47,313 nucleotides of DNA, from NCBI GenBank assembly GCA_027310625.1, contig DAIDAM010000010.1, forward strand, positions 1 through 47,313. The letters run 5' to 3'. Shown in pieces: positions 9,615-41,349 of this stretch. The DNA comes from a bacterium. GTDB lineage: Bacteria; Patescibacteriota; Minisyncoccia; UBA6257; 2-01-FULL-56-20. Numbering within the stretch: position 1 is the stretch's first letter; each line of letters starts with the position of its first letter. The translations under genes were made by a program, and so were the position numbers. The notes under the pieces were generated by a model. The model worked only from the letters and a program-made list of their open reading frames with translations, searched no databases and was not told the DNA's origin.

Positions 9615-9660
9615 GAGAGCAAATCTTAAATATGAAATCTGAAAACTTTTCTTTCGAATT

Positions 9661-10265: not shown

Positions 10266-10428
10266 TAAATTTTCCCCGTGTTGGAAGATAGGAGCGAAGC
10301 GACGTAAGAAACCAGAAGGTGTCTAATGAAACTTTGTTTCATTCAATCGGTTCGCTCAGCAATCACAATAACTTTATATTCTTGTGTTGCCTCGTTGCCG
10401 ATTGTAAGCGGGGGTCGGGGAAAATTTA
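10266..10428 (+). repeat. Structured repeat element, copy 1 (long form, at the yebC start)
   Basis: The terminal arms TAAATTTTCCCCG (10266-10278) and CGGGGAAAATTTA (10416-10428) are perfectly complementary. A 51-nt block (10274-10324) and a 16-nt block (10405-10420) are identical to the copy at 41267-41349. This copy has an extra 80-nt arm (10325-10404) with two stems: AATGAAAC/GTTTCATT and CAATCGG/CCGATTG. The outer arms differ from those of the other copy but still pair, which argues for selection on structure. It lies between the intact yebC start and a displaced copy of the yebC start. Confidence 0.8.
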
Positions 10429-13944: not shown

Positions 13945-14029
13945 ATTTGAAATCTGAAGCATGAAATCCGAAATGGATCGGTGCTTCAGTTTCAAATTTC
14001 AGATTTGTGATTTGTAATTTTAAAATGAA

Positions 14030-17531: not shown

Positions 17532-18854
17532 ATGTCCAATCTGAAATTGTTTTTCATTTCTCTTCCACCGGCAGTCGGCATTGCAGTAATATCTTTTTAC
17601 TTCCTTCCTCTTTTGTGGAGCGTTGTTTCCGTCGCGCTCGCGATATTGCTGCTCGTCATTTTGTTTGTTGCAACAGGAGGATTTGTCGGGACAAGGGCGC
17701 GGCAAACCGAACTTGGCGCAGCGGGAGGGATTCCGGACTCGGAAGTGAGCGAGTCCGAGCTCCGTCTCATTTTCAATACTCTGGGAGACGCGCTTTTGAT
17801 TTACGACGAGGACTTCAGAATACTTTTCTTCAACGCCGCCGCCGAACGGCTGTTCATGATGTCCGAAAAGGAAGTGTCGGGAGCGAGAATGCAGCCGGAG
17901 AACATAAACGACCCGAAACTCAAACTTCTTGCAGAAGTGATTTTTCCAAGCCTCGCGCCGGTCATGGTCCCGCGCTCGCAGGCGGGTGCTTGGCCGCAAA
18001 TTGTTGACCTTTCGTTTGACGAGCCGCAACTCGAACTCCGCGTGATGACCTCCCAGCTCGGCCAAGCCCCGGGTCAGCCGGCGAGATTTCTGAAAATCAT
18101 CCAAAACCGCACGCACGAGACGGCGCTTCTCAAAACCAAAAGCGATTTTGTGACCGTCGCCTCCCATCAATTCAAAACGCCGCTTACGCATATAAATTGG
18201 GCGCTGGACGCGCTGAAGAGCGACCCTGCATTGGGCGAAGGAAACAAAGAAATGATAAATGAAGCATCGAAAGCCGGGCATCTTCTTGCGGAAATAGTGG
18301 AGAATCTTCTGAGTATTTCAAAAATGGAAGAGGGACGGTTCGGCTACAAGTTCGAGCCGGCCGACCCGGTGGAATTTTTGGACAAGGTTTTGGGGCAGGT
18401 TCTGCCCGAGGCAAACAGGGCGGGCGTGCGGCTTTATTTTGAAAAGCCGCCGTCGTCCCTGCCCGAGGTCTTTATTGACAAGCAGCGGCTTGCTCTCGCG
18501 CTGACGAATTTTTTGGATAACGCCGTTCGTTACAACACTAAAAACGGCGAAGTGATAGTTCGCGTCGCTCAGCTCGCGGATAAGCCGTTTCTTCAATTCA
18601 GCATAAAGGACACCGGCATCGGCATACCCGGAGAGGATATCCCGAAACTCTTCGGTAAGTTTTTCCGCGCCGAGAACGCCGTGAAATTCCAAACTGAGGG
18701 AACAGGACTCGGTCTTTACATCGCAAAAAACATCATTGAGGCGCACGGCGGCAAAGTTCGCATTGAGTCGGAGCTTAACCGCGGGACGACGCTTTATTTT
18801 ACTCTGCCGACCGACAAATCGCTCGTGCCCCAGAGGGAAATGCCGATAGAATAA
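17532..18854 (+). CDS. Membrane sensor histidine kinase with PAS domain
   Basis: 440 residues. Two closely spaced membrane helices (about residues 6-24 and 28-50) are followed by a PAS domain (LRLIFNTLGDALLIYDEDFR). The H box is VASHQFKTPLTHINW with the phosphorylated His. The ATPase domain has N box LTNFLDNAVRYN, G1 DTGIGIPG and G2 GTGLGLYIAK. It should autophosphorylate and pass the phosphate to a response regulator, but none is encoded nearby, so the partner is unknown. A small palindrome (GGACTCG..CGAGTCC near 17726) sits in the linker before the PAS domain. Confidence 0.93.
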   Translation: MSNLKLFFISLPPAVGIAVISFYFLPLLWSVVSVALAILLLVILFVATGGFVGTRARQTELGAAGGIPDSEVSESELRLIFNTLGDALLIYDEDFRILFFNAAAERLFMMSEKEVSGARMQPENINDPKLKLLAEVIFPSLAPVMVPRSQAGAWPQIVDLSFDEPQLELRVMTSQLGQAPGQPARFLKIIQNRTHETALLKTKSDFVTVASHQFKTPLTHINWALDALKSDPALGEGNKEMINEASKAGHLLAEIVENLLSISKMEEGRFGYKFEPADPVEFLDKVLGQVLPEANRAGVRLYFEKPPSSLPEVFIDKQRLALALTNFLDNAVRYNTKNGEVIVRVAQLADKPFLQFSIKDTGIGIPGEDIPKLFGKFFRAENAVKFQTEGTGLGLYIAKNIIEAHGGKVRIESELNRGTTLYFTLPTDKSLVPQREMPIE

Positions 18855-18855
18855 T

Positions 18856-18935
18856 AAATCTGAAATTTGAAGCACGAAATCCGAAGCACGAAATCCGAAA
18901 AGTTTCATATTTCAGATTTGAGATTTCAAATTTTC
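18856..18935. repeat. AAATCTGAAATTTGAA-type dispersed intergenic repeat
   Basis: AAATCTGAAATTTGAAGCAC, then two copies of ACGAAATCCGAA, and the inverse TTTCAGATTTGAGATTTCAAA form an imperfect palindrome filling the gap before mutM. Related sequence lies at 13943-14015 after pilB and at 9622-9665 between ruvC and yebC. Confidence 0.55.
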
Positions 18936-18942
18936 TGCAAAT

Positions 18943-24736: not shown

Positions 24737-24826
24737 TTACACCTCCACGTCCTCCTCGCTTTCCTGGATACCGGCGATTTCGAGGAGGTCGATAGACCGT
24801 TAAGTCGGGGTCGGTAATCCCAACTT
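24737..24826 (-). pseudogene. Displaced 3' tail of uvrB, outer copy
   Basis: On the minus strand this reads [17 protein letters not shown] and stop (TAA at 24737-24739), matching the C-terminus of intact uvrB ([14 protein letters not shown]). Similarity continues upstream in another frame (GITDPDLTV, compare GITPQTI..PLTV), so it has at least one frameshift. That upstream part overlaps the last codons of the restriction endonuclease gene. I take it as the oldest uvrB end, pushed away by later insertions. Confidence 0.8.
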
Positions 24827-26194: not shown

Positions 26195-26277
26195 CTACAC
26201 CTCCACATCCTCCTCGCTTTCTTGAATGCCGGCGATTTCGAGCAAGTTAGCCACAGTGAGCGGGCGGCTGGCGGTTT
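26195..26277 (-). pseudogene. Displaced 3' tail of uvrB, inner copy
   Basis: Minus-strand translation [18 protein letters not shown] then QESEEDVEV and TAG stop (26195-26197). A 61-bp block (26207-26267) matches intact uvrB (26853-26913) at 60 of 61 positions. Intact uvrB ends EEDMTLSR instead of EEDVEV. The near identity over the shared block and its sharp ends indicate a recent duplication of the gene tail flanking the toxin-antitoxin cassette. Confidence 0.92.
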
Positions 26278-26293
26278 GGTTTATAGAGCAAAT

Positions 26294-26834: not shown

Positions 26835-28661
26835 TCATCTACTTAATGTCATATCCTCCTCGCTTTCCTGAATGCCGGCGATTTCGAGCAAGTTAGCCAC
26901 AGTGAGCGGGCGGTTGATGGTTTGCGGCGTGATACCGAATTTTTTGTTGTAGGCGAGCTGGATTTTGCGGCGGCGGTTGGTTTCGGCGACGGCTTTCCTG
27001 ATCGATCCCGTTATTTGGTCGGCGTAAAGAATAACCTGGCCGTTAGTGGAACGCGCTGCGCGTCCCGCCATTTGCATCAAGCTGCGTTTGTTTCGCAAGA
27101 ACCCTTCGCGGTCGGCGTTCAAAATCGCGATCAAGCTCACTTCCGGCAAGTCCAGTCCTTCGCGCAAAAGGTTGATGCCGACAAGCACGTCCACTTCGCC
27201 GCTCCGCAACTGGTGCAAAATTTTCGGGCGCTGGAGCGTTTTTATTTCCGAGTGAATGTATTGCGCGCGGATGCCTTTGGCGAGCAGAAATTCCGTCAGG
27301 TCTTCCGACTGCCGTTTGGTCAGAGTCAGCGCCAGCACGCGCTCGTTCCGCTCGGCGCGCTTTTTTATTTCTTCCAGCAGACTTTTTATCTGCGTCTCCG
27401 CCGGCTTGATGACGATTTCCGGGTCAATGACGCCCGTGGGACGGATGAGCTGTTCGACTATCTGCCCGCCGTCTTTTGCGTGATTCATTTCGCAATCGCC
27501 CGGCGTCGCCGAGACGTAAATCGTCCGCCCGATTTTTTCCTTGAACTCGGCGAAGCGGAGCGGGCGATTGTCCAGAGCCGACGGCAGACGGAAGCCGTGT
27601 TCAACGAGCGTCTGCTTGCGGCGTCTGTCGCCCGCGTACATTCCGTTCAGCTGGGGAACGCCGATATGCGATTCGTCAATGAAAAGTAAAAACGGCTTTT
27701 GAAAATAGTCAATTATCGTCATCGGCGGTTCGCCCTGCTCGCGGAAGGCGAGGTGGCGGGAATAATTTTCGATGCCGTTCACGTAGCCGTCTTTTTTGAG
27801 CCGCTCCATATCGAAGGAAACGCGCTTTTCCAGGCGCTCGGCTTCGGCGAATTTTCCCGCCGCCTGCAAATCTTCCACGCGTTCGGCGAGTTCCTTTTTG
27901 ATGTTCGCCATCGCGAGGCGCAGGCGGTCGCGCGGCGTCACCCAAAATTTGGAGGGAAAAATTTTCAGCGTTTGCAATTCTCCGCTTTTCACAATGTTTA
28001 ATATTGATTCCAGTTTCCGGTTGCGGAATTCGAGGAGAAATTTTTCTCCGGTTATCAAAACGAGCAGCAGTTCGTTTTTGTTCAGGGAAAACTGGCCGGC
28101 GAATTTCGGTTCGCCTTCCACCCGTTCGTACTGGAGGAAATTCAAGTGCCGTCCGACGTCGGCCGGGCTGATTTTCTGCCCGACGGCGAGCTCCAAGCTG
28201 ACGCGGTCGTATTCCGCCGGGTCGCCGACGCCATAAATGCAGGAAACGGAAGAAATTATAATCGCGTCGCGACGGTTCAAAACCGCCTGCAAAGCGGCGT
28301 GGCGGAGTTTGTCGATGTCTTTATTGATGCGCGCGTCTTTGGCGATATAGGTGTCGGTCGCCGGCAGGTAGGCCTCGGGCTGGTAGTAGTCGTAATAGGA
28401 AACGAAGTAGTGAACCGCGTTTTCGGGAAAAAAATTTTTGAACTCCTGATAGAGCTGGGCGGCGAGGATTTTATTCGGCGAAACAATAAGCGTCGGCAAA
28501 CCGGCGTTCTTGACGATGTTCGCCATCGTGAACGTTTTGCCGCTGCCGGTGACGCCCAAAAGCACCTGCTCTTCGAGCCCCTTTCGAAGCCCGTCGGTCA
28601 GTTTTTCAATGGCGGCCGGCTGGTCGCCCTTGGGATGAAAATTGGAAACGAGTTTGAACAT
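26835..28661 (-). CDS. uvrB: UvrABC system protein B, short form without the UVR domain
   Basis: 608 residues from the ATG at 28661 ([20 protein letters not shown]). Walker [12 protein letters not shown], the beta-hairpin [11 protein letters not shown], the DEAH-like FIDESH and helicase motif VI (QMAGRAARS) are present. The protein stops after [14 protein letters not shown]; the C-terminal UVR domain that binds UvrC in Escherichia coli is absent. UvrB verifies DNA damage in nucleotide excision repair. Its 3' end is duplicated twice downstream, and the current last residues (MTLSR) differ from those in both displaced tails (VEV), so the tail was exchanged by insertion. Confidence 0.96.
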
Positions 28662-30354: not shown

Positions 30355-31770
30355 ATGAAACTAACTTTCTACGGCGGGGTCGGAAGCGTTACGGGGTCGA
30401 ACTACCTTCTTGAAGCGCGGACCAACGCAGACCTTACGCAAACGCACGCAGAAAATGGAAGTCCGCGTAAGTCCGCGTCTAGTCAGCGTAAATCTGCGGT
30501 ACTGGTGGACTGCGGGATGCAGCAGGGCAGCCACTTTGCCGAGCGGAAAAATTTCGAGCCGTTTGCCTACGACGCCTCAAAAATTGACGCCGTTTTCATC
30601 ACCCACGCGCACATCGACCACATCGGTCTTTTGCCGAAGCTTTTGAAAGCCGGATTCAAGGGAAAAGTTTATTCCACGCCGGCGACGAGGGATTTCGCGG
30701 AGCTGATGCTCCTCGACTCCGAACACATTCTTGACAAGGAAGCGGAACGCGAAGGCAAGCCGCCGCTTTATAAAACCAATGACATTCAAAATCTGATAAA
30801 GGTTTGGGAGGGAATCGGGTATCACAAGCCGATAAATGTCGGCGGCTTCGCCGTCGAGTTTTTTGACGCCGGACACATTCTCGGTTCGGCGATTATTCAT
30901 GTGGAAGCCAACGGGAAAACAGTCGTTTTTTCCGGCGACCTCGGCAATTCGCCGGCGCCGATAATCCAGCCGACGGAAAAAATCGCTTCCGCCGATTACT
31001 GCCTGATTGAGTCAACCTACGGAAACCGTCTGCATGAAAACATCGGCAGGAGACAAGAGGAACTCGAGGACATTATCGAAGAAACCGTCAAATCCGGCGG
31101 GACGCTGATGATACCGGCGTTCGCGCTCGAGCGCACGCAGGAACTTCTTTTTCACATGCACGAACTTTTCGAGAAGGGACGCGTGCCCAAAGTGCCGGTG
31201 TTCATTGACAGCCCGCTAGCCATCAAACTGACGACGGTTTACAAAAAATACGAGGCGAGTTTCAACAAAGAAATCGTCAAAATGGAACGCGACGGCGACG
31301 ATATTTTCAATTTTCCGGGCCTGCGCTTCACACTGACGACGGAGCAATCGAAGGAAATCAACGACGCGCCGCAGCCGAAGGTGATTATCGCCGGCTCGGG
31401 AATGTCGAACGGCGGCAGGATTTTGCACCACGAGATGCGCTATCTCTCCGACCCGAAGAGCGCGATACTTTTCGTCGGCTATCAGACAGCCGGCTCGCTC
31501 GGGAGAAGAATTCTCGACGGCGCGAAGTCCGTCAGAATTTTCGGCGAAGAAGTTCCTGTCCGCTGCCGCGTCGCCGAAATCAGCGCTTACTCCGCGCACG
31601 CCGACCAAGGACAGCTTTTGGATTGGCTGAAACCGATGCGCATATCTCTCAAAAAAATTTTCGTGGTTCAAGGCGAGGAAGGTTCGAGCGAGGTGCTGGC
31701 CCAAAAAATCAGGGACAATTACGCCGTGGAAGCGGCAGTCCCGAAGCTCGGAGAGAAATACGTGCTATAA
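30355..31770 (+). CDS. Beta-CASP metallo-beta-lactamase ribonuclease-like protein
   Basis: 471 residues. Metal-binding motif HAHIDHIG (HxHxDH), GDLGN with the bridging Asp, a beta-CASP region with LIESTYGNRLH, and the C-terminal AGSGMSNGGRILHHE and AYSAHADQGQL. This is the layout of CPSF-type RNA endonucleases, also called RNA-specific MBL exonucleases. Between residues 20 and 48 an insertion, RTNADLTQTHAENGSPRKSA.., interrupts the usual SNYLLEA..VLVDCGM, and derives from a palindromic repeat also present in the polX gene. The insertion is in frame and lies in an expected surface loop. Confidence 0.9.
   Translation: MKLTFYGGVGSVTGSNYLLEARTNADLTQTHAENGSPRKSASSQRKSAVLVDCGMQQGSHFAERKNFEPFAYDASKIDAVFITHAHIDHIGLLPKLLKAGFKGKVYSTPATRDFAELMLLDSEHILDKEAEREGKPPLYKTNDIQNLIKVWEGIGYHKPINVGGFAVEFFDAGHILGSAIIHVEANGKTVVFSGDLGNSPAPIIQPTEKIASADYCLIESTYGNRLHENIGRRQEELEDIIEETVKSGGTLMIPAFALERTQELLFHMHELFEKGRVPKVPVFIDSPLAIKLTTVYKKYEASFNKEIVKMERDGDDIFNFPGLRFTLTTEQSKEINDAPQPKVIIAGSGMSNGGRILHHEMRYLSDPKSAILFVGYQTAGSLGRRILDGAKSVRIFGEEVPVRCRVAEISAYSAHADQGQLLDWLKPMRISLKKIFVVQGEEGSSEVLAQKIRDNYAVEAAVPKLGEKYVL
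30415..30499 (+). repeat. In-frame palindromic insertion in the beta-CASP gene
   Basis: About 85 nt beginning GGACCAACGCAGACCTTACG and ending AGTCAGCGTAAATCTGCGG. It aligns with 40313-40395 in polX (shared GACCAACGC, ACGCAGAAAA-like and GCGTAAGTC-GCGT-TAGTC-GCG blocks). It encodes TNADLTQTHAENGSPRKSAS. Confidence 0.75.
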
Positions 31771-31771
31771 T
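31763..31771 (+). promoter_or_regulatory. Extended -10 promoter of the DUF805 gene
   Basis: TGCTATAAT overlaps the stop codon of the beta-CASP gene and lies 14 nt before the ATG at 31786, predicting a leader of about 8 nt. Confidence 0.5.
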
Positions 31772-31785
31772 GAACTGATAAAGAA

Positions 31786-32190
31786 ATGTCACTGATGGGC
31801 AAAAATTTCAAAGGATTGCGGAATAGAATCAACCGCACGCAATATCTTTTTACACGCTTCATCATTTTAGCGTTTTATGCGGCGTACTTCGTAGTTTTTA
31901 TTCCTCTCATTGCCAATGCCACTTTACCATTTACAATTGGCAGTTTTCTCTTTGTTGCTTTAGCCATCACTATTGTTTTGAGCGCGGTGCTATTCGGATA
32001 TGAAATCTATTGGGCTGTGTGGAGATTTCATGATCTCGGTAGAAGCGGATGGTGGGCTATTTTGAGCTTTATTCCATATCTGAATTTTGTAACATGGCTT
32101 TTTCTGCTATTTTTGAAGGGCAATAAAGGACTGAACAAATACGGAGAAGAACCCGGCAGGGTCACGATAAAGAGTCTATTCGGTTATTAA
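31786..32190 (+). CDS. DUF805 membrane protein
   Basis: 134 residues. Starts MSLMGKNFKGLRNRINRTQY, then three membrane helices at about residues 22-45, 50-72 and 92-110. The DUF805 signature WRFHDLGRSGWWAIL, between the second and third helices, is clear, as is the tail KGNKGLNKYGEEP. The role of this family is not known. It begins a few bases after an extended -10 motif and is followed at once by the LOG family gene. Confidence 0.85.
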   Translation: MSLMGKNFKGLRNRINRTQYLFTRFIILAFYAAYFVVFIPLIANATLPFTIGSFLFVALAITIVLSAVLFGYEIYWAVWRFHDLGRSGWWAILSFIPYLNFVTWLFLLFLKGNKGLNKYGEEPGRVTIKSLFGY

Positions 32191-32195
32191 TCGAC

Positions 32196-32795
32196 GTGCT
32201 TGAAAAGAAAAAGAACAACAACCACAATCACGGGTTTTATCACCTGAAGTACAAAATCTGCGTCTCCGGCGCGGCGGAGACCTCGCGCATGGCTCCGGAG
32301 GCGATGGAGAAAGTTGAAGAACTCGGGCGGCTCATCGCCAAGCGCGGAATAATTTTGATAACGGGCGCGACGACGGGCGCTCCCTACTGGGCGGCGAAGG
32401 GCGCGAAGGAAGCCGGCGGTTTCGTCATCGGCATTTCGCCGGCGTATTCCAAAATCCAGCACGTGAAGACCTATCATCTGCCGCTGGATTATCACGACAT
32501 CATAGTTTACACGGGTTTCGGATATTCCGGACGCAACCTCCTTTTGACGCGCGCCTCGGACGCTGTTATCACTGTTGCTGGGCGGATCGGAACGCTCAAC
32601 GAGTTCACCGACGCCTTTGAAGACGGAAAACCTCAGGGCGTTCTGCTCGGCATGGGCGGGACGACGGATATGCTCCCGGATATTTTGGAGCGCGCCGGCC
32701 GCGGCCGCGGCAAAGCGTTTTTCGGGAAAGACGTGGAGCCCCTGCTTGATAAAGTGGTGGAAATGATAGTTGAGGAAGAAAAAGAGCTGGAATAA
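32196..32795 (+). CDS. LOG-family / Rossmann nucleotide-binding protein
   Basis: 199 residues with a GTG start at 32196. The core YKICVSGAAETSRMAPEAME, GIILITGATTGAPYWAAKGA and the TVAGRIGTLNEFTDAFE motif resemble the LOG/TIGR00725 group, where PGGxGT is catalytic in cytokinin-type phosphoribohydrolases. Here the motif reads AGRIGTLNE, so the first residues differ and activity is uncertain. The family is often annotated as putative lysine decarboxylase, which is an error. It lies 5 bp behind the DUF805 gene. Confidence 0.8.
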   Translation: MLEKKKNNNHNHGFYHLKYKICVSGAAETSRMAPEAMEKVEELGRLIAKRGIILITGATTGAPYWAAKGAKEAGGFVIGISPAYSKIQHVKTYHLPLDYHDIIVYTGFGYSGRNLLLTRASDAVITVAGRIGTLNEFTDAFEDGKPQGVLLGMGGTTDMLPDILERAGRGRGKAFFGKDVEPLLDKVVEMIVEEEKELE

Positions 32796-32844
32796 ATAAT
32801 TCCTAATTTCCAATTGAATTGAATCATAATTTCGTATCATAATT

Positions 32845-32874
32845 TTGTTTGGTGCGGGGGAAAGGTCGTATAAT
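32845..32874 (+). promoter_or_regulatory. Promoter of the EF-Tu domain-2-like gene
   Basis: TTGTTT (32845-32850), an 18-bp spacer, TATAAT (32869-32874), 13 nt before the ATG at 32888, giving a very short leader and no SD. Confidence 0.55.
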
Positions 32875-32887
32875 AATAGAAGTCATT

Positions 32888-33148
32888 ATGGCTGAAAAAA
32901 AAGAAAAACCAATCGGCGCCGTTACTCACTATTACGGTCATCTCGGTGTTGCGATTGTGAAATTCAGTAAGGCGGTGAAAGTCGGCGACAAAGTTCATTT
33001 CCGGGGCGCGACGACGGATTTCAACGAGACGATAAATTCCATGCAGTACGACCACAAGCCGATTGAGGCGGCGAAAAAAGGACAGGAAGTGGGAATTAAA
33101 GTCGGCGACAAAGTAAGGGAAGGGGACGAGGTTTACGCATCCGAATAG
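32888..33148 (+). CDS. Small beta-barrel protein resembling translation factor domain 2
   Basis: 86 residues from the ATG at 32888 (MAEKKEKPIGAVTHYYGHLG). The sequence VAIVKFSKAVKVGDKVHFRG, then VGIKVGDKVREGDEVY, is the EF-Tu domain-2 (OB-like) pattern that appears as stand-alone proteins in many CPR and archaeal genomes. The function is not established. Its last codons, Ala-Ser-Glu-stop, are supplied by a repeat element (33137-33195). It has its own promoter and is separated by about 100 bp from the permease gene. Confidence 0.8.
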   Translation: MAEKKEKPIGAVTHYYGHLGVAIVKFSKAVKVGDKVHFRGATTDFNETINSMQYDHKPIEAAKKGQEVGIKVGDKVREGDEVYASE

Positions 33149-33195
33149 CGCGCCTCCGCCTTTGGCTGCGGCAATCCGAATGCGCCCATCCGAAT
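33137..33195. repeat. CATCCGAATAGCGC / GCGCCCATCCGAAT repeat, copy a
   Basis: Left end GCATCCGAATAGCGC (33137-33151), right end GAATGCGCCCATCCGAAT (33178-33195), with a GC-rich hairpin-forming middle. Copies lie at 43833-43906 and, inside tmRNA, at 45008-45045. It supplies the stop codon of the gene at 32888. A further ATTCGGATGTAATTCGG unit follows at 33214-33230, shared with about 9066-9083. Confidence 0.75.
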
Positions 33196-33249
33196 CAGAC
33201 TTTCGGGGCATTCGGATGTAATTCGGGTTGTTCGTATCGCTTCAATTTT

Positions 33250-34347
33250 ATGGCTAACCGGAAATCTTTTTGGGGCAGCGTGGGATTGCTGACGGCGACG
33301 ACCATCGGCGCGGGAATGTTTTCGCTGCCTTACGTTTTTCAAAAATCCGGCTGGCTGCTTGGAATTTTTTACATGGCTGTTTTGGGCGCGGCGGTGATTT
33401 TCGTTCACTGGCTTTACTGGCTCGCGCTCGCGCGGGTTGACGAGAGAAAACGCCTGCTCGGCCTCGTGCGCGAACGCCTCGGAAAATTCGCTTACTACTC
33501 GGCGATAATTTCCGTCGTTGGCGGACTTTTTTTGATTCTCGTCGTTTATCTTATTCTCGCCGAGATTTTCGGGAAATTGATTCTTCCTTCGCCGCTTGAA
33601 AATTTCGGCGCGGTTTTGTTCTGGATTGCCGCGACCTTCCCGCTCTTTTTCAATCTGCCGCGGGTTATCGGCGCGGAATTGTGGGGAGCGGTTTTGATGG
33701 TTCTTATAATTCTTTTCGTTTTTTTGACGGGAAATTCCGGACTTTCCGCCGCGCCAACGATAAACATTCAAAACTTTTTGTTTCCTTTCGGCGCGGTGCT
33801 TTTCTCACTGACGGCGTGGACGGCGATAGAACCGATGTTTGAGTGGGACAAAAAGAACGGCGGCGCGCTTTCGAAGCTCGCGCTCGGAACAATAATTTCC
33901 GCGGCCGCCTATCTTCTTTTTACCTTCGGGATTCTCGGCTCCGCCGGCGCGATTTCGGAAGACACGCTTTCCGGGCTCTCGTCGTGGCCGTCGTGGAAAA
34001 TTCAACTCCTCGGCTGGCTCGGAATTTTCGCCATCTGGACTTCGCACGTGCCGATAAGCATGGAACTCAGAAACGAACTTGAAAAAGACCTCGACTTGCC
34101 GCCGTCATTCAGTTTTTGGATCGTCGTTTTTCTTCCGCTTCTACTCCTTTTTACGGGTATCTTCAGTTTTTTGGGAGCGATAAGTTTGGCAGGAGGATTT
34201 TTCTTGGCGCTGCAGTACGTTTTTATCATCCTCGTCAGCAAAAAAATTCTCGCTTTGTCGGCGACAAAAAAGTTTTTTGCGAATATGCTGATCCTCGTTT
34301 TTCTTGCGGCGGCGGTTTACGAAACGTGGTACTTCGTAATAAACTAG
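33250..34347 (+). CDS. Amino acid permease-like membrane protein (aromatic amino acid transporter type)
   Basis: 365 residues with about ten membrane helices. The opening TATTIGAGMFSLPYVFQKSG is the typical unwound first helix (GAG) of APC-superfamily transporters, closest to the aromatic amino acid permease group. Other visible segments: VVYLILAEIFGKLIL and GAVLFSLTAWTAIEPMFEWD. It would import amino acids, which fits a host-dependent lifestyle with few biosynthetic pathways. Substrate is unknown. The gene ends 9 bp before a broken tRNA-like sequence. Confidence 0.82.
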   Translation: MANRKSFWGSVGLLTATTIGAGMFSLPYVFQKSGWLLGIFYMAVLGAAVIFVHWLYWLALARVDERKRLLGLVRERLGKFAYYSAIISVVGGLFLILVVYLILAEIFGKLILPSPLENFGAVLFWIAATFPLFFNLPRVIGAELWGAVLMVLIILFVFLTGNSGLSAAPTINIQNFLFPFGAVLFSLTAWTAIEPMFEWDKKNGGALSKLALGTIISAAAYLLFTFGILGSAGAISEDTLSGLSSWPSWKIQLLGWLGIFAIWTSHVPISMELRNELEKDLDLPPSFSFWIVVFLPLLLLFTGIFSFLGAISLAGGFFLALQYVFIILVSKKILALSATKKFFANMLILVFLAAAVYETWYFVIN

Positions 34348-34368
34348 GCAGATAAAGCTCTCGTAGTT

Positions 34369-34398
34369 TCCGCCAAAGGCGGATCCGCCTCGGACGGA
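34369..34398. repeat. TCCGCC-GGCGGATCC palindrome in the interrupted tRNA
   Basis: TCCGCCAAAGGCGGA (34369-34383), then TCCGCCTCGGACGGA (34384-34398). The first half matches the in-frame insertion in the pilB-like gene at 12415-12429. Confidence 0.6.
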
Positions 34399-34421
34399 CA
34401 ATGGATTTCTGCACCTTTTAC

Positions 34422-34493
34422 GCCCTCATAGTTTAATGGATAAAACGCGAGCTTCCGAAGCTTGAGATCGAGGTTCGATTCCTCGCGAGGGCA
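34422..34493 (+). tRNA. tRNA-Arg (anticodon CCG)
   Basis: Acceptor GCCCTCA/CGAGGGC (last pair A-C mismatched), D arm GTTT..AAAC, anticodon arm CGAGC-TTCCGAA-GCTTG with anticodon CCG, T arm CGAGG-TTCGATT-CCTCG, discriminator A. No CCA is encoded. GCACCTTT just upstream and AAAGGTGC just downstream are complementary, as in many precursors. It reads the CGG codon. A terminator follows at 34715-34746. Confidence 0.92.
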
Positions 34494-34714
34494 CATAGAA
34501 AGGTGCGAGGCAAGCAGAGTGCGACCCTCCGAAGGAGGTGATGCAGGTTCAATTCCTGCCGAGAGCACCATTTCGAATTCGAAAATTGCAAGCCAGAGGA
34601 AGCCGCCTCGCTGCGCTCGGCGGCTCGCGCGTATCGCATTTTCGGCTCAAAACGGAATTTGCTATTTCGCTTAAGGGGAAGAAAAATTTTTAATCCAGTA
34701 CGAATACGAAAACC

Positions 34715-34746
34715 CAGAAAAAGCCCTAAAATGTGGGCTTTTTCTG
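34715..34746 (+). terminator. Intrinsic terminator after the tRNA
   Basis: CAGAAAAAGCCC (34715-34726) pairs perfectly with GGGCTTTTTCTG (34735-34746). Downstream, GCCACGATTTG is repeated in tandem. The rest of 34571-35018 has no convincing gene; I see only this terminator and the promoter at 34925. Confidence 0.75.
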
Positions 34747-34924
34747 TTGCCACGATTTGTGCCACGATTTGACCATTTTCTAATCAATACCTTTCACACC
34801 CCACCCTCTTCGTACCAGGTCCGCTGCGTCTCGACGCACGCGCGGCAGGTAGGGATTTTTTGAATACGCCATTTTCATAGTCTAAACGATGATGGGTGTT
34901 TCCAAGCTATTGAACCATGGGGGG

Positions 34925-34953
34925 TTGACAATTACATTATATTCTGTCACAAT
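34925..34953 (+). promoter_or_regulatory. Possible promoter of the small membrane protein gene
   Basis: TTGACA (34925-34930), a 17-bp spacer, CACAAT (34948-34953). The -10 is imperfect; TATATT inside the spacer is an alternative at a shorter distance. Confidence 0.4.
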
Positions 34954-35018
34954 TGCCGCGTAATCCTGATGGATTATAAAGTTCTTTAACCCTCAAACCC
35001 ACTAAACAGGAGGTCAGT

Positions 35019-35204
35019 ATGACGAGCGAAAAGCGGATCAGTTGTGCGGCCCAGATCATGGCCGCCGTCGGGGTGTTGCTATGGATAGGAGCGACGATAT
35101 ACTTCGGGTTCTATCCCGCCACCATTATCATCGCGATGACCGCTGTTCCGGCGACCATCTACAACATCGTGCGCGAAGCCAGGAGTGCCGAACCCGTGCG
35201 GTAG
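35019..35204 (+). CDS. Small two-helix membrane protein, unknown, with strong SD
   Basis: 61 residues. AGGAGGT lies 5 nt before the ATG. Two hydrophobic helices (about residues 9-28 and 31-46) are separated by a Tyr-Pro turn, with a charged tail, VREARSAEPVR. No family is recognised. It is a single-gene unit: TTGACA-type promoter upstream, and a perfect hairpin with T run downstream (35235-35279). An unknown role in the membrane is all that can be said. Confidence 0.6.
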   Translation: MTSEKRISCAAQIMAAVGVLLWIGATIYFGFYPATIIIAMTAVPATIYNIVREARSAEPVR

Positions 35205-35234
35205 GTGGCAACTCGACAGCGCCTGCGATCCAAA

Positions 35235-35279
35235 GCCCCAAGCGGAAACATGTTTCCGCTTGGGGCCCCTCACTTTTTC
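35235..35279 (+). terminator. Perfect-palindrome terminator
   Basis: GCCCCAAGCGGAAACA and TGTTTCCGCTTGGGGC (35235-35266) form an uninterrupted 16-bp stem, followed by TTTTT at 35274-35278. It ends the small membrane protein gene. The remaining bases to 35516 hold no gene that I can support. Confidence 0.85.
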
Positions 35280-35516
35280 TAAAATTGAAATTGTTGTCAT
35301 TATTTTCTACATTTGATTCATTCAGGGTATTCACTTCGCGAATTCTTGGTTGGATTTATTCGCCGCCAAAGGAAAACTTGAAATTGTCAGCGGTGCGGCT
35401 CCGCCGTGTTCCGGATTTTTCGCGGGGTGGGTTCCTCGCCGCCGCAGGCGCGATGGATTCGCACTAATTCAAGTATCCTGCACAAAAGGAAAGCCGCCAT
35501 TGCTGGCGGTCTTGTT

Positions 35517-35795
35517 CTATTTGCTCGGGCTCGGAAGTTTTCTCACCCTCAGAATTTTTGCGACTTCCTTCCCCACGCTCTCTGGGCTTTCTTCGATCAG
35601 CTTGAGAAGCAGCAAAGCAGTGGTGCGCGGCCTTGCGCCACGTCTGCCTTGTTCCCAGTTCTTGAGGGTGGATAGAGGAATCCCGAATGTCCGGGAGAAT
35701 TCTTCTTGTGTCATCATCAGCTTTTTGCGTATCTCCCTTACACTAACCTTGATTTCGAAGTACCTTTTTTCAAAGAGCGTGGCACGTTTTTTCAC
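35517..35795 (-). CDS. XRE-family helix-turn-helix protein, antitoxin- or regulator-like
   Basis: 92 residues with a GTG start at 35795; AAGGAGG lies 8 nt upstream. The HTH is VREIRKKLMMTQEEFSRTFGIPLSTLKNWEQGRR, followed by PRTTALLLLKLIEESPESV, as in HigA- or NadS-type regulators of toxin-antitoxin modules. No toxin gene is adjacent on either side, so it is an orphan. The SD sets it apart from neighbouring core genes and fits an acquired unit. It converges on the region after the small membrane protein. Confidence 0.82.
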   Translation of the reverse strand: MKKRATLFEKRYFEIKVSVREIRKKLMMTQEEFSRTFGIPLSTLKNWEQGRRGARPRTTALLLLKLIEESPESVGKEVAKILRVRKLPSPSK

Positions 35796-35860
35796 AACGC
35801 AAACCTCCTTAGGTTGTCCACGGGTTTTTTATACCGCACCTAAAGAATAAAATGTCAAAC

Positions 35861-35869
35861 TGATATAAT
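35861..35869 (+). promoter_or_regulatory. Extended -10 promoter of the uracil-DNA glycosylase gene
   Basis: TGATATAAT, 6 nt before the ATG at 35876. Transcription would start almost at the initiation codon, implying a leaderless or near-leaderless message. Confidence 0.55.
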
Positions 35870-35875
35870 TTCTTT

Positions 35876-36502
35876 ATGACCAAACCCGAAGCGCTGAAAA
35901 AGCTCGAGGAAGAAATCGCCGCCGACGCTTCCCTGCCCTTGCGGGAGTCAAATTTGGTTTTCGGGGAGGGAAATCCTGATAGCGAAGTTATGTTCATCGG
36001 CGAGGGGCCGGGATTCGACGAAGACAGGCAGAAGCGGCCCTTCGTCGGGCGTTCGGGACAGCTTCTGCGGAAAAATCTCCGCGCTCTCGGCTGGAAAGAA
36101 GAAAGCGTTTACATCACAAACATCGTCAAACGCCGGCCGCCGGGAAACCGCGACCCTCTGCCCGACGAAATCGCCGCCTACGAGCCGTATCTCGAAAAAC
36201 AAATCGAAATTATTAAGCCGAAAATCATCGTCGCCCTCGGCAGATTCGCGATGAATTATTTCCTGCCCGACGCCAAAATCAGCCGCGATCGCGGAAAAAT
36301 TTTCCGCTTCAAGGATTTTCTCGTTTATCCCGTTTATCATCCGGCGGCGGCGCTCCGTTCCACCGCCGTTCTCGGAGAAATGGAAGACGACTTGAAAAAA
36401 CTCCCGCAGATAATTGAGAAGGCGGACAAACTCCTTGCCGAAACAAAGCCCGAGCCGCCGCGCGTAAAAGAATCGAAAATAAAACAGGAGAAGTTATTTT
36501 GA
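35876..36502 (+). CDS. Uracil-DNA glycosylase, family 4-like, lacking all cysteines
   Basis: 208 residues. Motifs of family 4/UDGa are clear: FGEGNPDSEVMFIGEGPGFDEDRQ with GEGPG, PFVGRSGQLL, NIVKRRPPGNRDP, and the C-terminal HPAAALRS. In the family four cysteines bind a 4Fe-4S cluster (CxxC near the start, VKCRPP, and a Cys before EPYL). Here they are replaced: no CxxC, VKRRPP, and YEPYL. The whole protein has no cysteine. It should still excise uracil if the fold is stable without the cluster. A Lys/Pro-rich tail follows. Confidence 0.88.
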   Translation: MTKPEALKKLEEEIAADASLPLRESNLVFGEGNPDSEVMFIGEGPGFDEDRQKRPFVGRSGQLLRKNLRALGWKEESVYITNIVKRRPPGNRDPLPDEIAAYEPYLEKQIEIIKPKIIVALGRFAMNYFLPDAKISRDRGKIFRFKDFLVYPVYHPAAALRSTAVLGEMEDDLKKLPQIIEKADKLLAETKPEPPRVKESKIKQEKLF

Positions 36503-36553
36503 GAAGCTTACGAAAGTACGAAATGGTACGAAAGTACGAAAATTATTTCTCGG

Positions 36554-36562
36554 TGATATAAT
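36554..36562 (+). promoter_or_regulatory. Extended -10 promoter for the small membrane protein / Clp-like pair
   Basis: TGATATAAT ends 8 nt before the ATG at 36571, again suggesting an almost leaderless mRNA. The gap before it holds tandem TACGAAA repeats (36509-36541). Confidence 0.5.
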
Positions 36563-36570
36563 TAACGTAA

Positions 36571-36921
36571 ATGAACTTTTCGCTGACATACTTGGTCGGG
36601 AGATTTTTTTACCGGATTTACGATTTTTTTCACCATTGGTACGCCGACGCCTCGCGGGTTTTTTTTCACAAACTCGTTTCGTTTCTGGAGTCGCTTGACT
36701 ATGCGTTTGCCCTGAAAATCACGCTGCGCTACTTTTTCCAGCCGCTTTTCAAGGACTACACCGTTATCGGGAGGATTATCGGCGTCGTTTTCAGAACCTG
36801 CAGGATTCTCGGAAGCTTGGCGGTTTATTTCCTGATTTTGGTCGTTTTTTCAATCGTGTACATTTTCTGGCTTGCCCTGCCGGTCGTTTTAATTCTCTAT
36901 GTGATTGGTTATTCGTCATAA
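36571..36921 (+). CDS. Small membrane protein upstream of the Clp-like ATPase
   Basis: 116 residues, rich in Phe, Tyr and Ile. An amphipathic N-terminal part (LVGRFFYRIYDFFHHWYADA) precedes two strongly hydrophobic helices at about residues 78-95 and 97-114. No family is recognised. It lies 19 bp before the membrane-bound AAA ATPase gene and is probably cotranscribed. This pairing suggests a shared membrane complex, which is inference. Confidence 0.65.
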   Translation: MNFSLTYLVGRFFYRIYDFFHHWYADASRVFFHKLVSFLESLDYAFALKITLRYFFQPLFKDYTVIGRIIGVVFRTCRILGSLAVYFLILVVFSIVYIFWLALPVVLILYVIGYSS

Positions 36922-36940
36922 ATTATCTGTTATTGGTCAC

Positions 36941-39445
36941 ATGAACGAGAGATTTTATTTCAATGAGCAGCGCCTCGTAATGACTCTGCCCGGAAGGCTT
37001 CTTGTGAGAATTGCCGGTTACGTTTCTTACGCAGTTTTCTTTGTCGCCGGTCTTTCCATGGCTTTTTCCGACGTCCCGAATCTCCGGGCGCTCGGAATTT
37101 TGATACTTCTTTTCTTCGCCGATTACTTCGTTCATTTCGGCGAGGGAGACAAACCGTTTTCGGAAATGCCGGCCGCGGGGAAAATAAATCTCGCGGAGTA
37201 CTTGTCGCCGTCCGCCTATTCCGTTATTGAAAAAAGTTTTGACAGAAGCGTCATCTCCAAAACGGACTTCTTTTCAAACGCAGTCAAGGAACTTTTGCAA
37301 AGAAAGGAAATTAAAGAGGGACTTATGCGCCTTGACCTCAATGCCGACGAGCTCCGGCGGAAAATTGAGTCGCTTTCCGAATCGTCGGGAGCGAAGCGTT
37401 TGAATAAAAAGGAGATTATAAAAATGGCGGAGGCGCTGATTTTGAAGGCGGGAGAGAGAAGCATCGTAAATAGGCGGGAATTTATAGAAACGAGCGATAT
37501 TTTTTCGGGTCTTTTCTTTGTTGGCGACGAGACGATAAATCGCCTTTTCAACACGTTTTCAATCGAAGCGGACGATTTGGAATTGGCTCTTCTTTTGAGT
37601 TCGCTCAAGAAAAAATGGGGTTTCCGCCTGCCTTCAACTTTGGGCGGGTTCAGTTTTGAGACGCAGCGCGGAATGCGGCACAGAGTGGTCAACAGGGCTT
37701 GGACAAGCAGGCCGACGCCCACACTTGATAAATTCAGTTCCGATTTGACGGATTTGGCGGCGGAAAACGAGGTCGGTTTCATCATCGGGCACAACGCGGA
37801 GTATCAAAGGATGGTTGACACTCTTTCCAGGCCGCTCAGTCCGAATGTTCTTCTCGTCGGCGAGGAAGGCGTGGGCAAAGAAACGATGGTTCTTCACCTT
37901 GCCCGCCAGATTGTGAAAGACGAAGTTCCCCAGCGCTTGTTTGACAAACGCCTCGTAAGTTTGGAAATTTCAAGCTTGGTCGCCGGCGCGTCTCCCGAGG
38001 AACTGCAGGCGCGCCTGAAAAAGATAGTTGAAGAAATAACGATTTCCGAAAACGTAATTCTGTACATTCCCGATTTTCACAATCTCGTCAGAACCTCCGG
38101 GGAATATTATCTCTCGGCGGCTGACGCGCTGATGCCGATAATGAAAAATGACCTTTTCCCGCTCGTGGGCGCGACCTATCCGAGGGAATACAAAGAATTT
38201 GTTGAGCCGCGGAGCGACATCAAAAACATTTTCGAAGTGATAATGGTGAACGAGGTAAGTGAGGAAGAAGCAAGGAGGATTCTTGTCTACGACAGTTTGA
38301 TTCTTGAGAGGAAAACGGGAATCGTCGTCAGTTTCGCGGCGATAAAAGCGGCCGTGACTCTGGGAAAGAAATACCTTGCGGGAAAATTCCTTCCCTCGAG
38401 CGCGCAAGAACTTTTGAGGAGCGCTTTGTCTGCGGCGGCAAGGGAAAAGAATAAATATCTGACGCGGGATGGGATAGTGAAAGCGGCCGAAGCTAAAGTC
38501 AACGTGCCGATACACGAGGCGAGCGGGGCGGAGGCGGAGGCGCTCCTCAACCTTGAGGAAACGATACATAAGCGCCTCATAGACCAGGAAGAGGCGGTGA
38601 AAGTTGTCAGCACCGCGCTCCGCGAATACAGGAGCGGCTTGAGCCGCCCTGGCGGCCCGATAGCGAGCTTTCTTTTTATCGGTCCGACCGGTGTCGGCAA
38701 GACCGAGCTTGCAAAAATACTTTCAAGAATCCAGTTCGGCTCGGAATCGGCGATGATCAGATTTGATATGACGGAATATCAGGACAAAGCAAGCTTTTTC
38801 CGCTTCATCGGCTCGCCCGACGGGAAAATGAGCGGCGCGCTGACGGACGCCGTTCTCAAAAAACCGTACTCACTTATCCTTTTGGACGAGTTTGAGAAGG
38901 CGTTCCCGGACATCCTCGGTCTTTTTCTTCAGGTTTTCGACGACGGGCGGCTGACGGACAATCTCGGCAGAACGGTGGGATTTCAGAACACGATAATCAT
39001 CGCCACCTCCAACGCCCACTCCGACATCATCAACGAATCGCTTTCCAAAGGAGAAAAAATGGAGAATATCGCCGAGTATCTCAAAAGAAAACTGACCGAC
39101 GTTTTCAAACCGGAGCTTTTGAACAGGTTTTCAAAAGTCGTCGTTTTCAAAGACCTTTCGCCGGACGATGTTTACAAAATAGCGAAGATAAACCTTTCTG
39201 ACCTCGGGGGGATGCTTCTTGAGCAGGGAATAAAGCTTGGGTTTGACGAATCGGCTGTGAAGCAGATAGCGAAGCTCGGCTACGAGCCGGCTTTCGGCGC
39301 GCGCCCCCTGAGACGCGCCGTGGAGGAGCATCTCCGCGCCCCGCTTGCGGAAAAGATTTTGAGAAAGGAAGTGGCGCGCGGCGACGATATCACAATTCAT
39401 CATGAAGGTGACTCCTTTCAATTCAAAGTCGGCCGCTCCATTTGA
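36941..39445 (+). CDS. Membrane-anchored ClpA/B-type double AAA+ ATPase
   Basis: About 834 residues from the ATG at 36941. Two membrane helices (about residues 18-38 and 48-64) come first, then a helical region, then two AAA modules. Module 1 is degenerate: Walker A GEEGVGKET, where the family has GK[TS], and Walker B ILYIPDFHNL, without DE. Module 2 is intact: IGPTGVGKTELAKIL, LILLDEFEKAFPDI, TSNAHSDI, and the C-terminal D2-small domain FGARPLRRAVEEHL. It should unfold proteins at the membrane. No ClpP is nearby; a disaggregase or secretion-linked role is equally possible. Confidence 0.9.
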   Translation: MNERFYFNEQRLVMTLPGRLLVRIAGYVSYAVFFVAGLSMAFSDVPNLRALGILILLFFADYFVHFGEGDKPFSEMPAAGKINLAEYLSPSAYSVIEKSFDRSVISKTDFFSNAVKELLQRKEIKEGLMRLDLNADELRRKIESLSESSGAKRLNKKEIIKMAEALILKAGERSIVNRREFIETSDIFSGLFFVGDETINRLFNTFSIEADDLELALLLSSLKKKWGFRLPSTLGGFSFETQRGMRHRVVNRAWTSRPTPTLDKFSSDLTDLAAENEVGFIIGHNAEYQRMVDTLSRPLSPNVLLVGEEGVGKETMVLHLARQIVKDEVPQRLFDKRLVSLEISSLVAGASPEELQARLKKIVEEITISENVILYIPDFHNLVRTSGEYYLSAADALMPIMKNDLFPLVGATYPREYKEFVEPRSDIKNIFEVIMVNEVSEEEARRILVYDSLILERKTGIVVSFAAIKAAVTLGKKYLAGKFLPSSAQELLRSALSAAAREKNKYLTRDGIVKAAEAKVNVPIHEASGAEAEALLNLEETIHKRLIDQEEAVKVVSTALREYRSGLSRPGGPIASFLFIGPTGVGKTELAKILSRIQFGSESAMIRFDMTEYQDKASFFRFIGSPDGKMSGALTDAVLKKPYSLILLDEFEKAFPDILGLFLQVFDDGRLTDNLGRTVGFQNTIIIATSNAHSDIINESLSKGEKMENIAEYLKRKLTDVFKPELLNRFSKVVVFKDLSPDDVYKIAKINLSDLGGMLLEQGIKLGFDESAVKQIAKLGYEPAFGARPLRRAVEEHLRAPLAEKILRKEVARGDDITIHHEGDSFQFKVGRSI

Positions 39446-39448
39446 TTC

Positions 39449-41251
39449 ATGCTTTCAAATCTTGAAGTAGCGAGAGTGCTCCGCGAGATCGGCGAATACC
39501 TTGAGATGCAGAACGTGCCTTTCAAGCCGAGGGCGTACGAGAAAGCGGCACTGGCCGTGGAAGAACTGGAGAACAATGTTTCTGAAATCTACGGAAGCGG
39601 CGGGCTGAAAGCGCTCGAGGAAATTCCCGGAGTCGGCGTTTCCATTGCTGAAAAAATCGAGGAGCTTTTGAAAACCGGAAAATTGAAATATTACGAGCAG
39701 CTGAAGAAAAAAACGCCGGTGGATTTGTCTTCGCTGGCGAGAATCGAAGGTCTGGGTCCGAAATCAATTAAAAAACTTTACAGGGAGCTCGGCGTTGCTG
39801 ATTTGAAAGACCTCGAAAAAGCGGCGCGCGCGGGGAAAATAAGAAAACTCGAGGGCTTCGGCGAGAAAAGCGAAGAAAAAATAATCAAGGGACTGGAATT
39901 TATCGAAAAAGCCGGCGGGAGATTTCTTTTAGGAAGTGTTCTGCCGACGGCATATATGATTGAAGAAAGATTGAGAGAATTGCCCGGCGTCGAAAAAGCG
40001 GTTGTTGCCGGCTCGGCGCGCAGACGAAAAGAGACGATCGGCGATATCGATATTCTGGTCATTTCCAAAAAACCTGCCGCGGCGATGAATTATTTCACGA
40101 ATATGCCGGAGGTGGCGAGAGTGCTGGCTTCTGGGGAAACCAAATCGTCGGTCAAGCTTTCCTCGGGATTGAATGTCGATGTGCGCGTCGTGCCGGCGGA
40201 ATCGTACGGCGCGGCGCTGAATTATTTTACCGGCTCAAAAGACCACAACGTCGCTTTGCGTCGCATCGCCGTAGAGAAAGGATGGAAACTTAACGAGTAC
40301 GGCTTATTTAAAGACGCAGACCAACGCGGACTTCACGCAGAACGACGCGGAAAAATTCAGCGTAAGTCAGCGTTTAGTCGGCGAGAGTCTGCGTCAATGA
40401 TCGCGGGGAGGACAGAGGAAGAAATCTACCGCGCTTTCGGCATGGAGTATGTCGAGCCGGAGATGCGCGAGAACACGGGCGAGATAGAATTGGCGCAAAA
40501 ACACAAACTTCCGAAGCTCGTCGGCTACGGCGACCTCCGCGGCGATTTGCAGACGCAGACGGATTGGACGGACGGCTCAGATTCCATAGAAGACATGGCG
40601 CGGGCGGCAATCAAAGCGGGTCTCGAGTACATCGCTATCACCGACCACACCAAGCGCCTGGCGATGACCGGCGGACTGGACGAAAAAAGAATTCTGAAAC
40701 AAATGGATGAAATCGACGTACTGAACAAAAAACTCGGCGGCAAAATAAAAGTTCTCAAGGGCACGGAATGCGACATTTTGAAAGACGGCTCGCTCGATTT
40801 GCCGGACGGCGTTTTGTCGAAACTTGACGTTGTCGGCGCTTCTGTTCACTCACTTTTCAATCTTTCGGAAGCGGAGCAGACCGCGAGGATAAAAAAAGCG
40901 ATGTCCAATCCGCATGTCGACATTGTTTTCCATCCGACAGGACGTCTGATAAACCGGCGTGAACCTTACAAAGTCAATGTGGAGGAGCTGATTTCGCACG
41001 CCAAGAAAACAGGAACGATTCTTGAAATAAACGCTGACGCGAACCGCCTGGATTTGAAAGACGACTACATCAGAAAATGCGTCGAAGCAGGCGTAAAAAT
41101 GAGCATCGATTCCGACGCCCACTCGGCGGGCCAAGTCGGTTTTTTGGAACTGGGAATCGCGCAGGCGCGCAGAGGCTGGGCGACAAAAGACGATATCGTT
41201 AATGCATGGTCGCTAGAAAAAATGCTGAAATTTTTGAAAGGTGGAAAATAA
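39449..41251 (+). CDS. polX: DNA polymerase X family protein with PHP domain (PolX)
   Basis: 600 residues. The N-terminal HhH part (EEIPGVGVSIAEKIEELLK, then IEGLGPKSIKKLYREL) is followed by the nucleotidyltransferase core GSARRRKETIGDIDILV (paired Asp) and the C-terminal PHP domain (DLQTQTDWTDGSDSIEDMA, ITDHTK, SIDSDAHSAG). Bacterial PolX fills gaps and has 3'-5' exonuclease activity. A repeat-derived insertion (DADQRGLHAERRGKIQRKSA..) sits between EYGLFK and IAGRTEEE. The 3' end is of foreign or exchanged origin: a second version of the last 20 codons lies after the structured element at 41267-41349. Confidence 0.93.
   Translation: MLSNLEVARVLREIGEYLEMQNVPFKPRAYEKAALAVEELENNVSEIYGSGGLKALEEIPGVGVSIAEKIEELLKTGKLKYYEQLKKKTPVDLSSLARIEGLGPKSIKKLYRELGVADLKDLEKAARAGKIRKLEGFGEKSEEKIIKGLEFIEKAGGRFLLGSVLPTAYMIEERLRELPGVEKAVVAGSARRRKETIGDIDILVISKKPAAAMNYFTNMPEVARVLASGETKSSVKLSSGLNVDVRVVPAESYGAALNYFTGSKDHNVALRRIAVEKGWKLNEYGLFKDADQRGLHAERRGKIQRKSAFSRRESASMIAGRTEEEIYRAFGMEYVEPEMRENTGEIELAQKHKLPKLVGYGDLRGDLQTQTDWTDGSDSIEDMARAAIKAGLEYIAITDHTKRLAMTGGLDEKRILKQMDEIDVLNKKLGGKIKVLKGTECDILKDGSLDLPDGVLSKLDVVGASVHSLFNLSEAEQTARIKKAMSNPHVDIVFHPTGRLINRREPYKVNVEELISHAKKTGTILEINADANRLDLKDDYIRKCVEAGVKMSIDSDAHSAGQVGFLELGIAQARRGWATKDDIVNAWSLEKMLKFLKGGK
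40313..40395 (+). repeat. In-frame palindromic insertion in polX
   Basis: Ends GACGCAGA (40313-40320) and TCTGCGTC (40388-40395) are perfect inverted repeats, and the interior aligns with 30415-30499 in the beta-CASP gene. It encodes ADQRGLHAERRGKIQRKSAF in a loop that is short in other PolX proteins. Confidence 0.75.
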
Positions 41252-41266
41252 AAAAATGCCCAGCAT

Positions 41267-41349
41267 TGCAAAAACCCCGTGTTGGAAGATAGGAGCGAAG
41301 CGACGTAAGAAACCAGAAGGTGTCTTAAGCGGGGGTCGGGGTTTTTGCA
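41267..41349 (+). repeat. Structured repeat element, copy 2 (short form, at the polX 3' end)
   Basis: Arms TGCAAAAACCCCG (41267-41279) and CGGGGTTTTTGCA (41337-41349) pair perfectly. The interior has the 51-nt core (41275-41325) and 16-nt tail (41326-41341) found identically at 10266-10428, here without the 80-nt extra arm. The core includes GCGAAGC, a known very stable DNA mini-hairpin. The intact polX stop is 15 bp to the left and a displaced polX tail starts about 12 bp to the right. Confidence 0.85.

Follow-up and report, generated by a model that had tools for sequence, protein, structure and literature searches.

Palindromic elements in frame in two enzymes of a Patescibacteria genome are probably miniatures of a nuclease-encoding selfish element

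We analysed a window of 47,313 nucleotides (positions 1–47,313, forward strand, of contig DAIDAM010000010.1, GenBank assembly GCA_027310625.1; Patescibacteriota, Minisyncoccia, UBA6257, 2-01-FULL-56-20) in which a palindromic element of ~84 bp interrupts two genes in frame, one for a beta-CASP nuclease and one for a DNA polymerase of the X family (PolX). The two elements are probably miniature, non-autonomous copies of a selfish element that encodes a nuclease and whose arms would also serve as linkers in the protein. Judged by sequence, the arms are shared between the miniatures and a full-length form that carries a nuclease domain of the GxxExxY family. The host genes, the element copies and their arms are as follows (arms from the sequence and from alignment A1 of ten copies).

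30355–31770, + strand: host gene 1, a beta-CASP metallo-beta-lactamase nuclease of 471 aa (Pfam Lactamase_B, Beta-Casp and RMMBL).
30414–30500, + strand: palindromic element copy 1, a putative miniature in the beta-CASP gene (match to covariance model R1, 75.4 bits).
30416–30452, + strand: left arm of copy 1, with CGCGGA, CGCAGA, CGCAAA and CGCAGA at 30416, 30426, 30437 and 30447.
30462–30498, + strand: right arm of copy 1, with TCCGCG, TCCGCG, TCAGCG and TCTGCG at 30462, 30472, 30483 and 30493; translation PRKSASSQRKSA.
39449–41251, + strand: host gene 2, PolX, 600 aa (Pfam DNA_pol_B_thumb at 256–341, HHH and PHP).
40313–40395, + strand: palindromic element copy 2, a putative miniature in the PolX gene (R1 match, 86.1 bits).
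40313–40351, + strand: left arm of copy 2, with CGCAGA, CGCGGA, CGCAGA and CGCGGA at 40315, 40325, 40336 and 40346.
40357–40395, + strand: right arm of copy 2, with TCAGCG, TCAGCG, TCGGCG and TCTGCG at 40357, 40367, 40378 and 40388; translation QRKSAFSRRESA.

The beta-CASP and PolX stretches aligned end to end with a score of 72, against a maximum of 29 in 1000 dinucleotide shuffles. In both genes, whose identities were confirmed by Pfam, the reading frame is kept, the element making up residues 20–49 of the beta-CASP nuclease and residues 289–316 of PolX, the latter within the thumb domain. This bore out the first-pass annotation of the sequence, which had proposed that the same palindromic element sits in frame in both enzymes. 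The boundaries given there (30415–30499 and 40313–40395) held for the second copy and shifted to 30414–30500 for the first with the R1 model; the terminal inverted repeats of the PolX copy are perfect, as it had stated, and are 9 bp long (GACGCAGAC/GTCTGCGTC) rather than 8 bp. The PolX copy forms a single long imperfect hairpin (−25 kcal/mol folded as DNA, z = −5.6), and the hairpin of the beta-CASP copy is more decayed (z = −1.8). Alignment with relatives, a check that the annotation had recommended, showed that the full insert is absent from the PolX homologues of 27 relatives and from the beta-CASP homologues of 29. Thus the outcome named there as contrary to its proposal, an insert in all homologues with no DNA resemblance between the two genes, was not what we found. 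At the positions of the window elements, G001 (same genus, ~80% identity) has NEYGLFKVGKGGKETMIAG and YLLELNGKKILIDCG, and G021 has a half-element at the beta-CASP site. No direct target-site duplication could be made out at PolX or beta-CASP, where the element takes the place of native loop residues. Neither window element matched Rfam, indicating that no group I intron catalytic core is present there.

A separate observation concerns the same two loops, which in relatives carry GACAAGG-like heptad repeats (PolX of G021, beta-CASP of G007 and G009; loci L093, L124 and L126). These loops thus attract a second class of insert.

The alignment resolved the element into four CGCRGA motifs spaced by 10, 11 and 10 nt, a short A/T-rich loop and four complementary TCNGCG motifs with mirrored spacing. 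The motif centres are nearly always, and systematically, mispaired in the hairpin, the arms are conserved in sequence, and no covariation above chance was found within the element. With one motif on each turn of the helix, the layout is suggestive of a row of binding sites. A search of the whole genome with the R1 model (E < 0.05), in which matches on both strands were counted as one site because the element is palindromic, yielded the further copies that the annotation had advised looking for: ~22 sites, with 18 in long open reading frames (ORFs), 3 in rRNA genes and 1 intergenic. Judged by conserved motifs, the hosts include NifS, LeuS (two copies), GlyA, GltX, GyrA, MnmA and RluA; one 16S copy lies inside a group I intron, as the sequence and a comparison with empty sites in relatives indicate.

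Fifteen of 60 relatives also carry the element, with very uneven copy numbers (many in G021, G050 and G008, one in G001). A DNA pattern scan of 84,980 species returned 99 stretches, nearly all from Patescibacteria, and under stricter filters 7 of 287 genomes of a phylum-wide sample were positive, so that the element is patchy. No viral contig matched the pattern. Pattern matches in Deltaproteobacteria, Spirochaetia and Clostridia metagenome-assembled genomes (MAGs) were taken as chance, as no strong model match was obtained in L174, L200 or L205; a ‘Nanoarchaeota’ match (L246) is probably a binning error, its LepA gene being close to that of Patescibacteria. As far as sequence can tell, the best sign of recent duplication or movement is a pair of identical 85-nt intergenic copies of a TAGAAGC-ended variant, ~0.9 kb apart, in G050 (L078; G050:C8:21694 and 22626).

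The nuclease-bearing form was found by searching the relatives for GxxExxY (TIGR04256). Such domains lie inside ORFs of 494–910 aa, with the left arm directly upstream and the right arm directly downstream, in frame and with the same spacing as in the short elements. The hosts of this arm-bracketed nuclease are an 862-aa glycosyltransferase-like ORF (this genome), the G-domain loop of LepA (G021, G050, G008 and G022) and a RecG-like protein (G027). Arms were present on both sides of 14 of the 16 in-frame domains, and the two that departed from this were a degenerate copy (L252) and a domain from another clade. We surveyed 42 distinct GxxExxY domains and placed 39 in a tree, where arm-bearing nucleases accounted for 16 of the 19 members inside one clade (support 100/99) and for 0 of the 20 outside it. 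The other GxxExxY clades consist mostly of free-standing genes whose flanks are inverted repeats of an ACGAAT-like motif. The 862-aa ORF (L290; G000:C10:112800–117200) holds two in-frame GxxExxY domains belonging to different clades.

The full-form nuclease matched TIGR04256 with 114.5 bits (cut-off 35) and PF13366 with 109.8 bits (cut-off 22), and residues Glu23, Asp62, Glu72, Lys74 and Gln86 are invariant in 21 members. Its structural model (predicted local distance difference test, pLDDT, 94) was closest to the Cas4-like nuclease SSO0001, with weaker matches to the homing endonuclease I-Bth0305I, archaeal splicing endonucleases and Holliday junction resolvases. When the LepA fusion of G021 was modelled, both folds were kept and confidence was low at the arms (residues 67–81 and 203–217) and at a few other loops. 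GxxExxY occurred in 11 of 16 element-positive genomes versus 13 of 45 element-negative ones (p = 0.008).

Next to the elements we observed inverted duplications of flanking sequence. Stems of at least 7 bp adjoin 32% of left ends and 31% of right ends, compared with 2.3% of control windows, and the distance between the end of the flanking hairpin and the first motif is constant. In LepA they stand on both sides of all seven full copies, each with an outer arm of conserved sequence native to the gene (..MAPVRM, LNLIDTPGH..) and an inner arm that is the reverse complement of the outer one. The LepA hairpin pairs change together between genomes (CAGGTTGAGGA/TCCTCAACCTG and CAAGTTGAGGA/TCCTCAACTTG), and no hairpin of this kind occurs in the LepA genes of 15 relatives without an insert, where the best stem is 3–6. 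The RecG-like genes of this genome and of G021 show the same pattern, with different synonymous codons (TGTCCGAGGAT/ATCCTCGGACA and TGTCCCCGT/ACGGGGACA). These duplications probably result from fold-back copying of broken target ends at insertion, and may be a host repair signature common to this element and to the heptad-arm inserts considered below.

Other small inserts were seen in the LepA loop or its equivalent. One LepA gene (L178, JAUYBE010000006.1) carries there a CCCTATACCCTAAAC-like repeat that may represent a third type of small insert. In an EF-G-like gene of G020 (L304), the loop corresponding to the LepA site holds three in-frame tandem copies of SPHPSLEKEGKT.

The full form consists of a left arm of four CGCRGA motifs, an in-frame GxxExxY PD-(D/E)XK nuclease domain with intact catalytic residues and a right arm of four TCNGCG motifs. 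In the explanation that we propose, the promoter, start codon and translation would be supplied by the host gene, and the arms would be read as hydrophilic linkers, so that the nuclease is made as an inserted domain and the host protein is not killed. The nuclease, which we infer to be the mobilising enzyme, would recognise the motif of its own arms, which recurs once in each helical turn, and cut DNA, thereby moving the element; the broken target ends would fold back and be copied, giving the inverted flank duplications, and only then be ligated to the element. If the ORF between the arms were lost, a hairpin like those of PolX and beta-CASP would remain and might be mobilised in trans. Only in-frame insertions in permissive surface loops would survive. 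We put forward more tentatively, as a suggestion that could well prove wrong, that this is an undescribed class of selfish element that forms an in-frame domain of essential proteins, expresses its nuclease only within the host polypeptide and integrates by folding back, which leaves inverted host codons on both sides; its terminal repeats would serve at once for recognition and as protein linkers.

Several observations weigh against the proposed explanation. The copies in this genome differ by ~20% and so give no evident sign of recent transposition. A clear flanking hairpin is missing from both window copies, and a stem of at least 7 bp is found on either side of only 30% of the ORF copies. 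In rRNA genes a similar hairpin pair (GTCAGTG.., GCCAATG..) recurs at different, unrelated sites; the hairpins there may therefore travel with the element. All of the genomes are MAGs, and the copy counts come from filtered searches. Two further points favour an alternative in which another enzyme, or replication and repair through template switching at hairpins, moves the arms and hairpins, and the GxxExxY ORFs are passengers caught between the arms. First, five element-positive genomes have no recognisable GxxExxY gene. Secondly, three nuclease-less heptad-arm inserts, of the four-helix-bundle kind, in the same LepA loop also have inverted duplications of 12–16 bp, and the signature may thus belong to a host repair process and not to the nuclease. 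This alternative is unlikely in our judgement, although it deserves to be taken seriously: the arm type tracks the nuclease clade, other GxxExxY clades have a similar layout with ACGAAT-like arms, and the catalytic residues are invariant despite the unrelated host protein.

Another explanation is that the sites common to several genera (LepA, RecG, LeuS and GltX) represent a few ancient insertions, maintained by vertical inheritance and homogenisation. The same LepA loop is indeed occupied in seven genomes, and the RecG-like and LeuS-like genes in several. However, the 15 uninserted LepA genes are found among the sampled relatives, different classes of insert occupy the same LepA loop, and the full PolX and beta-CASP copies occur in this genome only, among the relatives compared. 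We therefore consider a purely ancient origin of these sites improbable.

The way in which the copies lie within their hosts bears on whether the insert is present in the mature protein. Across the genomes, 60 of the 64 copies within ORFs of at least 250 aa are in the sense orientation; three of the four exceptions are short (60–66 nt) with an uncertain strand call, and the fourth is open on both strands. Since antisense frames are open in 24–52 of 113 copies per frame, the sense bias is not an effect of stop codons alone. We then fixed the phase on the last motif, read as Ser-Ala (S-A), the motifs being 10/11-spaced. The S-A frame (..RKSAxSxRESA) is open in 57 of 60 copies in ORFs compared with 21 of 52 elsewhere (p = 2e-10), 54 of the 60 hosts use this phase, and the core length is a multiple of three in 44 of 60 ORF copies compared with 17 of 52 elsewhere. 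The sequence is thus not open by itself, and the copies in protein genes appear to be read and constrained. The difference in S-A frame openness suggests that the element peptide is probably translated.

A strong hairpin could, in principle, allow the insert to be skipped by ribosomal bypass or removed from the RNA or protein (byp-, intron- or intein-like), and ribosomes do bypass inserts in Magnusiomyces mitochondria and in phage T4 gene 60 (PMC5009743). However, bypass would not need the frame to be kept open as it is here, which makes it unlikely. Removal finds no counterpart in the 862-aa fusion, in which Pfam detected no Hint or other splicing domain, but only PDDEXK_3 together with host-type or weak nuclease matches, and the group I intron around one 16S copy is the intron's own property. 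Loss of the insert from the mature protein is thus very improbable. We give equally little credence to a non-mobile hairpin selected for a regulatory, DNA uptake or RNA-processing function, with flanking hairpins that insulate RNA folding: although most copies lie in transcribed genes, and LepA of G021 and G008 share the left hairpin and have differing yet complementary right hairpins, suggesting maintenance, the element is variably present among close relatives in PolX, beta-CASP and LepA, has one copy in the same-genus G001 compared with ~22 here, occurs as the two identical 85-nt copies in G050, and in its full form holds a nuclease ORF.

The window contains other repeats. Intergenic GAAATCTGAAATC-like heptad repeats with inverted halves (9618–9682, 13940–14021 and 18853–18936) resemble miniatures of the heptad-arm four-helix-bundle elements. 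Between 24738 and 26924, the 3′ end of uvrB occurs three times (24738–24789, 26196–26278 and 26842–26924) around a DNA methylase (N6_N4_Mtase) and a probable PD-(D/E)XK restriction enzyme; this looks like a restriction-modification cassette inserted behind uvrB, with the tail repaired or duplicated. An identical non-coding 51-bp direct repeat is present at 10274–10324 and 41275–41325, 31 kb apart.

In Rickettsia, protein genes with palindromic repeats have been on record since 2000, and no enzyme that moves the repeats is known to us. None turned up in the open-access papers that we read; two of these mention GxxExxY, by name only and without a function, and none treats palindromes that code for protein in Patescibacteria. 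The present case offers a nuclease-bearing candidate parent, a defined putative recognition motif, empty sites and an insertion scar that is distinct, which makes the question testable at the bench; it also provides a concrete functional hypothesis for the uncharacterised GxxExxY family. If the proposal is correct, these elements, together with the heptad-arm four-helix-bundle elements, would be a recurrent source of the loop insertions in Patescibacteria proteins and rRNAs, and would help to explain insertions that hamper annotation, structure prediction and rRNA surveys.

Among known systems, the REPIN/RAYT pair is similar in combining short palindromic repeats with a separate single-gene parent; REPINs are mostly intergenic and are served by the RAYT transposase. 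Miniature inverted-repeat transposable elements (MITEs) have terminal inverted repeats in common with a longer coding element, as seen here. In contrast with MITEs, the putative mobiliser is a GxxExxY PD-(D/E)XK nuclease and not a known transposase, and the host gene reads through the element in frame. Direct target-site duplications were not discernible at PolX or beta-CASP, and other loci have inverted flank duplications instead. The full-form nuclease belongs clearly to the GxxExxY family (NCBIfam TIGR04256, Pfam PDDEXK_3); here it lies in frame within housekeeping proteins, bounded by specific arms. A nuclease ORF lodged in frame in conserved genes is also a feature of inteins and free-standing homing endonuclease genes; unlike inteins, the present element has no splicing domain, is apparently translated as a permanent linker or domain, and has nuclease-less miniatures. 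The intervening sequences of rRNA are selfish DNA lodged in helices of the 23S molecule, and some include an ORF (PMC4990558). The S23/four-helix-bundle inserts have heptad arms and a different protein, yet have apparently invaded the same LepA loop. Finally, the palindromic elements of Rickettsia and Wolbachia (~100–150 bp) are multicopy, lie in frame in unrelated genes and encode a recurrent peptide (PMC3767692, PMC10969869). The likeness to the Rickettsia elements proposed in the first-pass annotation holds for behaviour, compared here without reference to sequence: both are palindromic, multicopy and in frame in protein genes, with a recurrent peptide. It gives half of the picture, as the present elements look like miniatures of a nuclease-encoding form, occur also in rRNA genes and in many cases have inverted target duplications. 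Moreover, they belong to Patescibacteria and not to Rickettsiales, and their arms, built of four CGCRGA motifs, are the same as those of the nuclease-bearing form.

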